From an uncultured Opitutia bacterium (GTDB lineage Bacteria; Verrucomicrobiota; Verrucomicrobiia; Opitutales; UBA953), in the NCBI GenBank assembly GCA_903850885.1, contig CAINMU010000105.1, positions 1 through 32,793 on the forward strand: a DNA stretch of 32,793 bases, read 5' to 3'. The notes under the pieces were generated by a model that was not told the DNA's origin, ran no database searches, and saw only the letters and a program-made list of their open reading frames with translations. Position numbers and translations under genes: made by a program. This document shows positions 13,194-17,105 of this stretch, one piece after another (position 1 is the first letter of the stretch; each line of letters begins with the position of its first letter).

Positions 13194-13856
13194 ATGGCTC
13201 GCAAGACGAAAGCGGAGGCTGCACTCACTAAAGATAGAATTGTCACCTGCGCCCGACAGGTCTTTGCCCGAGATGGCGTCACCAATACCTCGCTCGAAGA
13301 GGTCGCCCGCGTGGCCGGCGTGACCCGCGGGGCGGTCTACTGGCACTTTCGCAACAAGGCCGATCTCTTCATGGCCGTCCGCTCGCAGACTGGCCTCCTT
13401 ATTCAACTGGGAGAGGCCCAAGGCGGCGACCCCCTGCAACGGCTGGAAAACGGCCTCCTCGAAGCGCTCCAGCGACTCAGCGATGAAACCGCGGCGCAGG
13501 AAACCTACGAAGTCATGCTCTGGAAATGCGAGTACGTGGGTGAGTTCGCCCAAGTGCGCGACGACCTGCTCAGCTCCGGCAACCTCTTCCTGGGCGATGC
13601 GGAAGCGCTTTATCGCGAAGCCCTTGCCGCTGGCATCGTCGCCGCCGACCTCGACCCGAAGACCGCAGCCCTGGCCACCTTTTGTTTTTACGCGGGGATA
13701 TTAAAGATATGGCTCGCCGACACCCGGGGCACGATCTTGCGAAAGCGAGCCCAGCAAGCGATCGCGCACCACATCGCCCAACAACGACGGCCATCGCTCG
13801 CCACGACAAGGCAGGTTGACCGGCGGGGGCGGCCGGCCAAAGATTCCTCACCGTGA
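13194..13856 (+). CDS. TetR-family repressor of the efflux operon (AcrR/TtgR type)
   Basis: A 220-residue regulator. The N-terminus MARKTKAEAALTKDRI closely resembles AcrR, and the helix-turn-helix VTNTSLEEVARVAGVTRGAVYWHFRNKADLF is the canonical TetR DNA-binding domain (about residues 25-58). The C-terminal ligand-binding half includes the AcrR-like 'E-V-M-L-W-K-C-E-Y-V-G-E' stretch and a membrane-like helix FCFYAGILKIWL. It is divergent from the adaptor gene with only 24 bp between start codons, which hold the palindromic operator. By analogy with AcrR it should repress itself and the pump genes until a drug-like ligand binds. The C-terminus (STRQVDRRGRPAKDSSP region) is basic and probably disordered. 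The next gene's GTG overlaps its TGA. Confidence 0.94.
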   Translation: MARKTKAEAALTKDRIVTCARQVFARDGVTNTSLEEVARVAGVTRGAVYWHFRNKADLFMAVRSQTGLLIQLGEAQGGDPLQRLENGLLEALQRLSDETAAQETYEVMLWKCEYVGEFAQVRDDLLSSGNLFLGDAEALYREALAAGIVAADLDPKTAALATFCFYAGILKIWLADTRGTILRKRAQQAIAHHIAQQRRPSLATTRQVDRRGRPAKDSSP

Positions 13857-14479
13857 AGGCCCTCCCCTCCCTTCTCTTCGCCTTGCTCGCGATCGTCCAA
13901 ACAGCGCGGGCCGCCGACCCGGACCCGCCGCAGACGCTGCCGATAATCTACGAGCAACCGGGTCCGAACTTCATCCTCCGGATCGACAACCGTCGTTACC
14001 AAGTGCCCAACGAGCTTAAGGAAGCCGTCGCCCGCCTCATGGCTTCAGCCAATTACCCGCGGACGAAATTGATTTACGAGGAATATAAACGGGCCTTGGG
14101 CGAAAAAGCCAAAGCGGACGCTACGCTCAGCAAAGCGGAGCAACAGCTCCAGCGTGCCATCAGCCGGACGGAACGCATCCGCGCGAATTTGGCCGCGCTG
14201 CGTAATCAGCTCATTCTCGCGCGCTCCACTTCACAGATCGAGGTCCGACAGGTCCTGATGTTGCAGGAACAAATTCTCCACGAGACCTCGAACCTGGCCG
14301 CCGCCGAAGCCCAAGAAGACCGCGAGCGCAGCCGCCTCGAAGAGGCCCGGCACGCAAATGAACCCACGATGCAACGCACCGAAAAAGCCAAAGACGATTA
14401 TATCCGCGCCTTGGGCGACTACGAGAAACCGTTCGCCGAAATCCGCGCCCTGGCGATGTCGGCCGGCACGGCGCTCTAA
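13853..14479 (+). CDS. Secreted coiled-coil protein of unknown function, coupled to the TetR gene
   Basis: A 208-residue protein with a clear Sec signal peptide (MKALPSLLFALLAIVQTARA|AD). A short Pro-rich stretch and a small domain (FILRIDNRRYQVPNELKEAVARLM) follow. From about residue 75 to 185 there is an almost continuous charged heptad-like region (ADATLSKAEQQLQRAISRTE, LMLQEQILHETSNLAAAEA, EDRERSRLEEARHANE) that should form a long periplasmic coiled coil. No family is recognised. It starts with GTG whose last two bases lie in the repressor stop (GTGA overlap), so it is translated with the repressor and probably shares its regulation. A role beside the efflux pump, for example in envelope stress, is only a guess from position. 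Confidence 0.8.
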   Translation: MKALPSLLFALLAIVQTARAADPDPPQTLPIIYEQPGPNFILRIDNRRYQVPNELKEAVARLMASANYPRTKLIYEEYKRALGEKAKADATLSKAEQQLQRAISRTERIRANLAALRNQLILARSTSQIEVRQVLMLQEQILHETSNLAAAEAQEDRERSRLEEARHANEPTMQRTEKAKDDYIRALGDYEKPFAEIRALAMSAGTAL

Positions 14480-14497
14480 ACTTTAGCTAAACTCAAC

Positions 14498-14608
14498 ATG
14501 AAATCCCCTTATCTCCGCCTCATCTTTGGGCTTATGTTTTGCACATCCAGCATCTTCGGCCAAGGCGACCTCTTCGAACCCACCCTTCGTGAAGCGCTGG
14601 GCCGCTGA
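14498..14608 (+). CDS. Tiny secreted ORF or gene remnant
   Basis: A 36-codon ORF starts 18 bp after the coiled-coil gene. It encodes a convincing signal-peptide-like N-terminus (MKSPYLRLIFGLMFCTSSIF, then GQGD) and about 14 further residues. It may be a genuine small exported peptide or the left end of a decayed secreted-protein gene, since the following 50 bp carry no in-frame continuation. No homologue is recognised. Confidence 0.35.
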   Translation: MKSPYLRLIFGLMFCTSSIFGQGDLFEPTLREALGR

Positions 14609-14658
14609 TTTTTCCGCCACCCCGCTTGTAATCGGCAAAGCTCCTTCCAATTTAGTTA

Positions 14659-15366
14659 ATGATGACCCGCAACTTCCGCTACTACGACTTAATCCTCGGC
14701 GCATTCGTGGCGGTGTTACTGTGCTCGAATCTCATTGGACCGGCGAAGGTCGTGCAGCTCGACCTGCCCTTCTTCGGCAAGACGGACTTCGGCGCAGGCA
14801 ACCTTTTCTTCCCGCTCTCCTACATCTTCGGCGACATCCTCACGGAAGTCTACGGCTACGCCCTCGCCCGGCGCGTAATCTGGGCGGGCTTTGGCGCGAT
14901 GCTCTTCGCGACGATCATGACCTGGGTCGTGCTCGCGCTGCCGGCTAGCCCGAACGAACCCTTCAGTGCGCAGCTGCAACCGGCGCTCGTCACGTGCTTC
15001 GGCGGCGGCTGGCGTATCGCCCTCGGCTCAATCATCGCGTTCTTCGTCGGCGACTTCCTCAACTCCTACGTGCTCGCGAAGATGAAGGTACGCATGGGCG
15101 GTAAGCATCCGTGGGCCCGCTTCATCGGATCGACCGTCGTCGGCCAAGGCATTGACAGCCTAATCTTCTACCCGCTCGCCTTCATCGGCATCTGGAGCCC
15201 GCAGACACTTCTCGCCGTGATGTTCGCCAACTGGATTTTTAAGGTGCTGGTCGAGGCGGTCATGACGCCCGTGACGACCATCGTCTGCGCCAAGTTAAAG
15301 GTAGCCGAAGGCGTTGATACCTTCGATACGGATACCGATTTCACGCCCTTCAGCCTCAAAGGCTAA
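14659..15366 (+). CDS. yhhQ: Queuosine precursor transporter (YhhQ / DUF165)
   Basis: A 235-residue inner-membrane protein of the VUT/DUF165 family, which imports queuosine precursors such as preQ0/preQ1 for tRNA modification. The signature is clear: SNLIGPAKVVQLDLPFFG, GNLFFPLSYIFGDILTEVYGY, the helix IIAFFVGDFLNSYVLAKMKV, then FIGSTVVGQGIDSLIFYPLAF and NWIFKVLVEAVMTPVT. Six membrane segments can be drawn. Two adjacent ATGs (14659 and 14662) are possible starts. No preQ1 riboswitch consensus was found in the 50 bp upstream. It follows the coiled-coil and tiny ORFs on the same strand but may have its own promoter. Confidence 0.94.
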   Translation: MMTRNFRYYDLILGAFVAVLLCSNLIGPAKVVQLDLPFFGKTDFGAGNLFFPLSYIFGDILTEVYGYALARRVIWAGFGAMLFATIMTWVVLALPASPNEPFSAQLQPALVTCFGGGWRIALGSIIAFFVGDFLNSYVLAKMKVRMGGKHPWARFIGSTVVGQGIDSLIFYPLAFIGIWSPQTLLAVMFANWIFKVLVEAVMTPVTTIVCAKLKVAEGVDTFDTDTDFTPFSLKG

Positions 15367-15500
15367 CCGTCCCGTAACCCGTTTAGGTGCCCTTTTCGAC
15401 CCCCAATGGGGTTTAATGCGGATTTCTATCTTATTATCCGGGATTTTAGAAGAATCCATTGACACTTTCCCCCCGGACGCACACATCACCCTCAGTCAAT

Positions 15501-15529
15501 TTCACTCAGGTAAGAGCCTCCCTTATAAA
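15501..15529 (+). promoter_or_regulatory. Possible sigma70-like promoter upstream of the hairpin region
   Basis: TTCACT (15501-15506) and TATAAA (15524-15529) are spaced by 17 bp, and transcription would start near 15536, just before four consecutive hairpins. A perfect TTGACA at 15459-15464 has no good -10 at the proper distance. Confidence 0.35.
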
Positions 15530-15535
15530 GGATGC

Positions 15536-15681
15536 AACAGTCGCGAGGGCGACTAACGGAAGAAGAAATAATATTCACCGTACCCGACCCCAGAGCTCCG
15601 TAGCTAGAGCTCTGGTCTTATTTGTTCGGATTTTCCGAAATCCATAACGAGCCGTTCCAACCGAACGGCTCGTCTCATTTT
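15536..15681 (+). ncRNA. Candidate structured small RNA (four consecutive hairpins)
   Basis: The 368 bp between yhhQ and tRNA-Leu contain no convincing protein gene. Four perfect hairpins lie in tandem: 15539-15554 (6-bp stem, loop GAGG), 15590-15615 (9-bp stem CCAGAGCTC/GAGCTCTGG, followed by TCTTATTT), 15628-15643 (6-bp stem, loop TCCG) and 15647-15673 (11-bp stem ACGAGCCGTTC/GAACGGCTCGT, followed by CTCATTTTA). The second and fourth look like terminators. A promoter-like pair lies just upstream. A 23-codon ORF starting at 15532 spans the first hairpin and could instead be a leader peptide. No known RNA family was recognised, and the strand is chosen from the T-runs and promoter. Confidence 0.35.
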
Positions 15682-15734
15682 ACCGGGACGCGCGACCTCG
15701 CCCAGCCGCTGTTAGCATCTTCCCAAAGTCGTCG

Positions 15735-15815
15735 TGCCCAAGACCGGACTCGAACCGGTAAGCCTTTCGGCGGCAGATTTTAAGTCTGATGTGTATACCA
15801 TTCCACCACTTGGGC
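15735..15815 (-). tRNA. tRNA-Leu (anticodon UAA)
   Basis: An 81-nt cloverleaf on the minus strand. The 7-bp acceptor is GCCCAAG/CTTGGGC with discriminator A, the anticodon loop TTAAAAT has UAA at 34-36, and there is a class II variable arm (CCGCCGAAAGG) and a T arm CCGGTTCGAGTCCGG. The 3' CCA is not encoded. It reads UUA (and UUG by wobble). It lies 47 bp after the DUF3147 gene on the same strand. Confidence 0.95.
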
Positions 15816-15862
15816 CGACACCCGCAACGTGCCGCTGTCCGACCAAATGGCAAATGGGAAAA

Positions 15863-16210
15863 TCAGGCACCGGCTTTATCCAAGAGCGGCTGGCAGAGTC
15901 GGTAGGTCGCCGCGGTGATGAGGCAGGCCAAAACCAGCGCCGGCCAGAACCCCAAAGCAGCCCTTAATAAGAGCGGGAAAGCAATAAAGAGCACGAACGA
16001 TGGAATGGTATAGGCCAAGATGGACCAATTAAGCGCGATGACTTTGGCCTGATCGCCCGTGTCCACCCACGTCCAGATCATCACCAAGAGGCTCGTCAAG
16101 GGCAGCGCGCAGAGCATCGCCCCCAGCGATATATTTCTTTTGGCCAACTCCGAGGCGCCCGTGATCACCGCGGCCGAAAGAAAGAATTTCAGAATCAACT
16201 GGAGGCTCAT
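15863..16210 (-). CDS. DUF3147 family membrane protein
   Basis: A 115-residue hydrophobic protein with four membrane segments. It opens with SLQLILKFFLSAAVITGASELAKRNISLGAMLCALPLTSLLVMIWTW-like sequence and continues with WSILAYTIPSFVLFIAFPLLLRAALGFWPALVLACLITAATY. Length and pattern (a 'K-F-x-x-S-A-x-x-I-x-x-x-S-E' first helix and 'L-P-L-x-S-x-L' in the second) match DUF3147, small inner-membrane proteins of unknown function. It is divergent from trpA (104 bp between starts) and is followed by tRNA-Leu. Confidence 0.8.
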   Translation of the reverse strand: MSLQLILKFFLSAAVITGASELAKRNISLGAMLCALPLTSLLVMIWTWVDTGDQAKVIALNWSILAYTIPSFVLFIAFPLLLRAALGFWPALVLACLITAATYRLCQPLLDKAGA

Positions 16211-16313
16211 GGGCCTAACTTACCCGCATTCGACAGGCCTGCAAAGCCGAAGTTAACGGGACCGGCGAGTGTCGCCTTGCGCTTCCGGTTAAAGCCGACT
16301 TTCTTCACCTGAC

Positions 16314-17105
16314 ATGGATCGAATCGCCCAGACCTTTGCCCGCTGCAAAACCGAAGGCCGTCCGGTCTTCGTCAGTTACGTCTGCGCCGGCGATCCCGAT
16401 GCCGCCACATCGAAACAGATCCTGCTCGCCCTGGCCCAGCACGGCGCCGACATCCTCGAAATCGGCATTCCCTTCTCCGATCCGCTCGCCGACGGGCTGA
16501 CCAATCAGTTGGCCTCACAGCGCGCGCTCGAAGCCGGCATGACTTACGATGGCTTGCTGGACATCATCCGCGCGACACGCGCCGGCACCGATAAGCCTAT
16601 CGTGCTCTATTGTTATTATAACCTGCTTTTTTCCTTCGGGGTCGAAAACTATTGTCGCAAGGTCCGCGCAGCCGGAGCCGATGGCCTGCTCGTCCTCGAC
16701 TGCCCGCCCGAAGAAGCCGGCGACCTGATCGCGGCCAGTAAGCAGCACGACCTCGCTAACATCTTCATCGTGGCGCCGACCACGCCGCCCGCCCGCGTGG
16801 CTTTGATCGCTAAGCATGCTTCGGGTTTCATTTATTACGTCTCCCGCGCTGGCGTGACCGGCGAGCGTTCTGATCTGGCCTCCAATCTTTCCGCCGCCGT
16901 CCAGGAAATTAAGAAGCACACGACGCTGCCGGTTTGCGTGGGCTTCGGCGTTTCGACCGCCGCCCACGTCCAAGCGATTGCCAAAGTCGCCGACGGGGTC
17001 GTCGTCGGCAGTGCTCTGGTTAACGTGATCGCCGCCCATAAGGATAAGCGGGGCGAAGCTGCGGCCGCCGTGGGCGCTAAGGTGCGAGAGCTACTGGCGA
17101 AGTAA
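16314..17105 (+). CDS. trpA: Tryptophan synthase alpha chain
   Basis: A 263-residue TIM-barrel enzyme that cleaves indole-3-glycerol phosphate to indole and glyceraldehyde-3-phosphate and passes indole to TrpB. The catalytic residues fall at the textbook positions Glu49 and Asp60 in ADILEIGIPFSDPLADG. The usual Pro after ADG is replaced (GLTNQ), a small departure. The phosphate-binding part is recognisable in FIYYVSRAGVTGER, VCVGFGVSTAAHV and ADGVVVGSALV. trpB is not in the window, so trpA is separated from it or lies at a distance. It is followed by a 189-bp gap with a G-tract/C-tract element before pyrB. Confidence 0.97.
   Translation: MDRIAQTFARCKTEGRPVFVSYVCAGDPDAATSKQILLALAQHGADILEIGIPFSDPLADGLTNQLASQRALEAGMTYDGLLDIIRATRAGTDKPIVLYCYYNLLFSFGVENYCRKVRAAGADGLLVLDCPPEEAGDLIAASKQHDLANIFIVAPTTPPARVALIAKHASGFIYYVSRAGVTGERSDLASNLSAAVQEIKKHTTLPVCVGFGVSTAAHVQAIAKVADGVVVGSALVNVIAAHKDKRGEAAAAVGAKVRELLAK

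Follow-up and report, generated by a model that had tools for sequence, protein, structure and literature searches.

The stretch of DNA analysed here, a window of 32,793 nucleotides from an uncultured Opitutia bacterium, very probably carries a conserved gene for a non-coding RNA at about 15494-15623. Judged from sequence, the block of helices H0-H3 appears to be a small RNA limited to one genus of freshwater and lake Opitutales (probably GTDB's UBA953, a lineage named in PMC12697132), without a match among the families of Rfam 15. The RNA is likely to act in trans and, with somewhat less assurance, the whole is best explained as an autonomous trans-acting small-RNA gene whose product would pair with other RNAs. 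A candidate small RNA had been proposed at this place in the initial annotation, and that reading gains from genus-wide conservation, compensatory changes, a promoter-like element that travels along with the RNA, and changing neighbours. The region looks like a small-RNA gene, with a promoter and boundaries that differ from those first given for it.

A blastn search with 15490-15690 against 95 genomes, comprising the window's own and others of its genus, family and order, matched the block in 37, all of them among the 55 genomes of the window's genus. In most of these it stops near 15625, at H3, with a sharp edge at the predicted start; in four genomes it spans only 47-54 nt of the core. A covariance model built from 16 sequences, with loci L031-L033 left out, recovered those three at 75-76 bits and gave one strong match in each of the 37 loci.

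Helices and their conservation

All four stems of the initial annotation are there as described, over a total of 135 nt: 15539-15554 (6 bp), 15590-15615 (9 bp), 15624-15638 (6 bp) and 15647-15673 (11 bp). Two further helices, at 15516-15535 and 15556-15581, carry conserved bases, and about 45 nt of the conserved block precede the first of the four stems. The features are as follows, in order of position.

15459-15464, + strand: -35-like element, TTGACA in 35 copies and TTGACT in 2 (all 37), within variable sequence
15482-15487, + strand: -10-like hexamer CACATC, 17 nt after the -35-like element, its position read in all 37 copies
15494-15623, + strand: small RNA, its transcript predicted at about 130 nt, the start placed by promoter spacing and the edge of the conserved block
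15516-15535, + strand: helix H0, GC-C-UCC / GGA-U-GC around the loop CUUAUAAA, from predicted folds
15539-15554, + strand: helix H1, AGUCGC-GAGG-GCGACU, exact in 37 of 37 copies
15556-15581, + strand: helix H2, ACGG(A)...(U)CCGU, inner part variable
15585-15589, + strand: unpaired linker CGACC, invariant in 22 aligned sequences
15590-15615, + strand: helix H3, 9 bp, constant GUAGC in the loop, followed by UCUUAUUU
15624-15638, + strand: helix H4, 6 bp, alignable in the locus-sharing clade only
15647-15673, + strand: helix H5, 11 bp, alignable only within that same clade, facing a convergent tRNA-Leu

The predicted fold of 15535-15681 was more stable than all 200 of its dinucleotide shuffles (z -5.53), as was that of 15535-15622 (z -3.98, again 200 of 200). 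For the structure alignment, 20 of the 37 loci were fitted to the model with near-identical copies omitted, giving 17 distinct rows; three weak extra model matches were dropped by a stricter limit. Of the cells in this 20-locus alignment, 97.8% were paired, as compared to 28-43% in slid versions, a figure biased towards the structure by the fitting to the covariance model.

The individual helices differ in what they contribute. H0, which holds the string earlier taken for a -10 element, has a central mismatch that becomes G-U in L034-L036; its UCC and GGA are invariant, and no compensatory pairs were found. None of the six pairs of H1, the helix with the strongest conservation, ever varies, and covariation therefore does not test its pairing. 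H2 is paired in 92.9% of cells, likewise with no compensatory pairs, and its inner part differs by clade. The check for covarying stems that had been proposed came out in favour of H3: both-side changes occur at five of its nine pairs, with four pair types at one of them, and all 19 both-side cells of the structure fall within this helix. Across all 20 rows GUAGC is kept in the H3 loop while the stem changes. For the structure as a whole, the 19 both-side cells compare with 5.2 in shuffles, none of 500 being as high, whereas further pair types (7 versus 5.8, with 103 of 500 as high) were not above shuffles.

Conservation of the stems in relatives holds across the genus for the first two of the four annotated stems, H1 and H3, but not for the third and fourth, H4 and H5, for which 19 distinct sequences of the locus-sharing clade were aligned. 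Compensatory change was seen at one of four counted pairs in H4 and both-side changes at four of ten in H5. Together this amounts to 5 of 14 counted pairs, a value reached by 15 of 500 shuffles, and to 16 such cells, reached by none of 500; further pair types were 7 versus 7.4 in shuffles. The L031-L033 clade has extra predicted 5' hairpins. Two other pairings were rejected, one of CCUC with GAGG, since L034-L036 read CGUC, and one a 5'/3' helix of the main-clade folds that was not kept in L026 or L035.

The RNA is better conserved than its surroundings. Among 17 loci with a complete adjacent yhhQ (19 were tried, two lacking a complete one), which give 136 pairs, mean pairwise identity was 0.951 for the RNA (122 nt), 0.854 for yhhQ, 0.650 for fourfold sites of yhhQ, and 0.702 for the 60 nt upstream of the RNA, promoter included. 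Between the window's copy (L001) and L003 the RNA is identical, with fourfold sites at 0.619.

Promoter-like element and predicted transcript ends

The -10-like hexamer reads CACAAC in 22 of the 37 copies and AATAGT in six, with CATAAC, AAAGTG and others in the rest, and conservation starts about 7 nt after it in most copies. The hexamer is poor in the window's clade. In L026, TTGACA-17-AATAGT scores 10/12 as a sigma-70 promoter, and this copy was the only positive one of five in a consensus promoter scan, which called none in the window, L031, L036 or L034. Over 14400-16600 the scan called no promoter at all, and so neither the TTGACA site nor TTCACT-TATAAA, the pair that the initial annotation had put forward as promoter-like. 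The TTCACT-17-TATAAA string is indeed present at 15501-15529, but a promoter role is doubtful, since it lies inside the conserved block and TATAAA reads CAGAAA in L031-L033. The other 34 of the 37 copies have TATAAA, with flanking bases as conserved as elsewhere in the RNA. Because the TTGACA element stands upstream of all 37 copies and TATAAA falls within the conserved block, we predict that the transcript starts near 15494, not 15535.

RNA polymerase would start near 15494 from the TTGACA promoter to give an RNA of about 130 nt, which would fold into H0-H1-H2-H3 and end after H3; on read-through past H3, the end would lie after H5, near 15681. H3 with UCUUAUUU is a probable terminator and H5 a probable second one. 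H3 scored as terminator-like in two of five copies, those of the window and L034, and not in L026, L031 or L036; H5 scored as terminator-like in the window. Terminator-like tails had been listed for two of the stems. Taken alone, terminator-like calls over 14400-16600 are no more frequent than chance would give (3 found, 2.8 expected).

Distribution and genomic neighbourhood

Over the wider order, the covariance model matched 36 of 372 genomes, all in the genus, in a search whose stricter filters may lose weak matches and whose listing lacks the genus genomes G034 and G044. When genome contigs were scanned with an exact pattern, 39 stretches came back, of which 38 were attributed to genus genomes already matched; the other, on a Euryarchaeota contig, is not recognised by the covariance model and was set aside as chance. 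There was no match to the RNA in the plasmid collection and none in viral contigs. The RNA has one match per genome with three exceptions, G007, G031 and G004, which have two each (L013/L044, L029/L069, and L018 with G004:C129), all at or near contig ends save L018. These double matches probably reflect assembly breaks in a strain-constant block and not true second copies.

Eighteen of the 55 genus genomes are without the RNA. Several of these are incomplete, though not all; G039 (97%), G046 (96%), and G053 and G049 (94% each) are near complete, and the RNA is therefore not indispensable to the genus. Under laxer search settings, the 18 together with 14 other genomes gave matches in 7 of the 32. 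The best, in G038 (23.9 bits, E 6.5e-4), falls within a 472-codon open reading frame (ORF) and resembles the model chiefly around the H1 string; we regard it as chance, a remote relative being improbable. Matches in G052, G039 and G064 overlap long ORFs and were treated as chance, as were those in G076, G070 and G030 (12.3-14.1 bits), which were inspected as sequence only. In a midpoint-rooted pyrB tree covering 38 genomes (the motif filter removed 4 of 42 sequences, and 13 genus genomes had none used), the RNA-bearing G041 stands beside the small genomes G046 and G018, both without the RNA, so that the RNA is plausibly ancestral to the genus and was lost in places.

Five contexts of the RNA were distinguished, namely yhhQ/tRNA-Leu, FAD oxidoreductase, AspRS, MadL/MadM and SDR, with Pfam run on one locus each and neighbours read by sequence. 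In the window's clade (L001-L025), yhhQ (Vut_1) lies upstream. Of the 21 copies of this clade with 100 or more bases of downstream sequence, 20 have a convergent tRNA-Leu as the next gene, found by ARAGORN in 19 copies and, for L006, by a motif at the gene start. The exception, L004, has another gene inserted; in this genome, G040 (L103 / L004), a 460-codon gene (MMKALFRTLILLPG...) stands 3' of the RNA where other copies of the clade have tRNA-Leu. In G017, G039, G005 and G051, no RNA separates yhhQ from tRNA-Leu, the two being about 25 bases apart or less. Upstream of yhhQ in the window lies a gene (13853-14479) that looks, by eye, like the one preceding the RNA in the L026 clade, where yhhQ was found elsewhere (G021) or not found; an older gene order may have left this trace.

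Since the RNA occurs with its own promoter-like element at unrelated loci, in five contexts and without a fixed cis neighbour, it is most likely trans-acting. We would count it among the autonomous trans-encoded small RNAs, as a conserved promoter-like element, a conserved structure and the lack of a fixed adjacent target were all found.

Alternative readings and mode of action

A cis-acting leader of the next gene, either a riboswitch or an attenuator, is a quite unlikely reading. Four of the five contexts, and L004/L103 as well, do have a next gene on the same strand, starting 138-188 nt after the start of H1, but these downstream genes are unrelated, and in the 20 of 21 window-clade copies the next gene is the convergent tRNA-Leu. 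A terminator-like hairpin moreover lies between the RNA and madL in L036 (0.3 expected by chance), and ten single-sequence folds, a weak test, gave no alternative antiterminator. Neither the constant class of downstream gene expected of a riboswitch, in whose place there were unrelated genes or a convergent tRNA, nor the conserved small ORF before a downstream gene expected of a leader peptide was found. The latter arrangement had been raised as an alternative on account of a 23-codon ORF at 15532, which is present in the window. Of the 37 copies, however, 31 have ACG at 15532 and only six have ATG. Three of those six stop early, the full ORF being kept in L001-L003 only, and not one position of the H1 block varies, not even third codon positions. 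That the downstream tRNA-Leu is convergent also speaks against a leader peptide or attenuator. Sequence comparison refutes a translated gene as a conserved feature, and a short translated gene or leader peptide is hardly tenable here. That the H1 palindrome is a DNA operator and no part of an RNA is also very unlikely. It is an invariant 16-bp inverted repeat, as such a site might be, but GTCGCNNNNGCGACT occurs at two other places in the genome, not more often than the backward control (3 forward and 1 reverse versus 4 and 2), and the adjacent H3 varies like an RNA helix.

The main rival of a trans-acting RNA that recognises other RNAs is one that binds protein, sequestering or scaffolding it in the manner of 6S- or CsrB-type RNAs instead of pairing with messages. 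In favour of this rival, neither the stem nor the loop of H1 changes in any of the 37 copies, a constancy that a protein-binding site might demand, and the window's genome, G000, yielded no Hfq; against it, CsrA was not found in G000 either, and a 6S candidate and an SRP RNA sit elsewhere in the genome, on contigs C28 and C10. We consider protein binding unlikely. That the RNA is a base-pairing regulator is a tentative reading which falls just short of being probable.

Comparison with known families agrees with the earlier statement that no RNA family is recognisable. No family of Rfam 15 reached its gathering threshold at the locus, the only such matches in the window being two tRNAs, and the same threshold gave no family in L031, L034 or L035. 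Permissive Rfam scans of four copies returned only families below their cut-offs, with the lowest E-values for mir-128 (0.008, 20.9 bits, cut-off 49) and mir-1538 (0.028, 22.1 bits, cut-off 78). Trans-encoded small RNAs such as RsaE/RoxS are alike in size, in having their own promoter-like element and a terminal hairpin, in mostly one match per genome, in being limited to a lineage, and in a constant loop on a changing stem. The C-rich loops of RsaE/RoxS cover Shine-Dalgarno (SD) sites; in contrast, SD motifs are not clearly enriched at starts here and Hfq was not found. 6S RNA (RF00013) is likewise a small structured RNA gene, but the 6S candidate of the genome (L039, G000:C28:13368-13531), its only RF00013 match, is at a separate locus, and no long bulged duplex is predicted for the present RNA. 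That candidate scores 40.7 bits, below the Rfam cut-off of 46.4, and 6S may therefore be under-annotated in this group. The small SRP RNA shares the string CGGAAGCAG with some copies, but a separate SRP RNA (RF00169, 75.2 bits, above cut-off) lies at C10 and there is no SRP match at the locus. The sponge RNAs of the CsrB/RsmZ type consist of a series of hairpins, as does this RNA, which also has GGA in AAAGGA and ACGGA; they differ in that CsrA was not found in the genome and both GGA are paired in most predicted folds.

In the proposed base-pairing mechanism, the RNA would contact other RNAs through its constant bases, with the GUAGC loop of H3 foremost and the CGACC linker and H0 loop after it. 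It would do this in a cell where neither Hfq nor CsrA is recognisable, and probably by other means than SD masking. G000, which is 96% complete and was the one genus genome searched, had no match to Hfq (PF17209) or CsrA (PF02599). In the window, SD-like motifs precede 2 of 26 ORFs, against 5.2% in shuffles; for the ORFs of 16 loci the count is 10 of 88, against 6.8% in shuffles and 48 of 427 for internal ATGs. The comparison is rough because starts were approximated by the first ATG. SD motifs before starts are thus not clearly enriched in the genus, and masking of SD sites by CCUCCC was dropped for this reason. As neither Hfq nor CsrA was recognised in G000 and SD motifs are not clearly enriched, Hfq-dependent or SD-masking action is unlikely. 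The motif counts, which speak against CCUCCC as an SD mask, are in line with PMC10783764, where Akkermansia and Verrucomicrobia bacterium IMCC26134 are listed as SD-scarce.

It is rather improbable, if conceivable, that this is an RNA class without a described relative, confined to one lake genus and at work in a cell with no recognisable Hfq or CsrA and little use of SD sites, with a novel mode of recognition through the invariant H1 and the GUAGC loop, and changing loci together with its promoter. How small RNAs exert control where Hfq and CsrA are not recognisable and SD sites are few is poorly understood, and the RNA offers a testable case of such control. Among the papers searched, none dealt, by title and abstract, with small or structured RNAs in Verrucomicrobia or Opitutae, so that a well-conserved gene with a ready covariance model would provide a starting point in this freshwater group.
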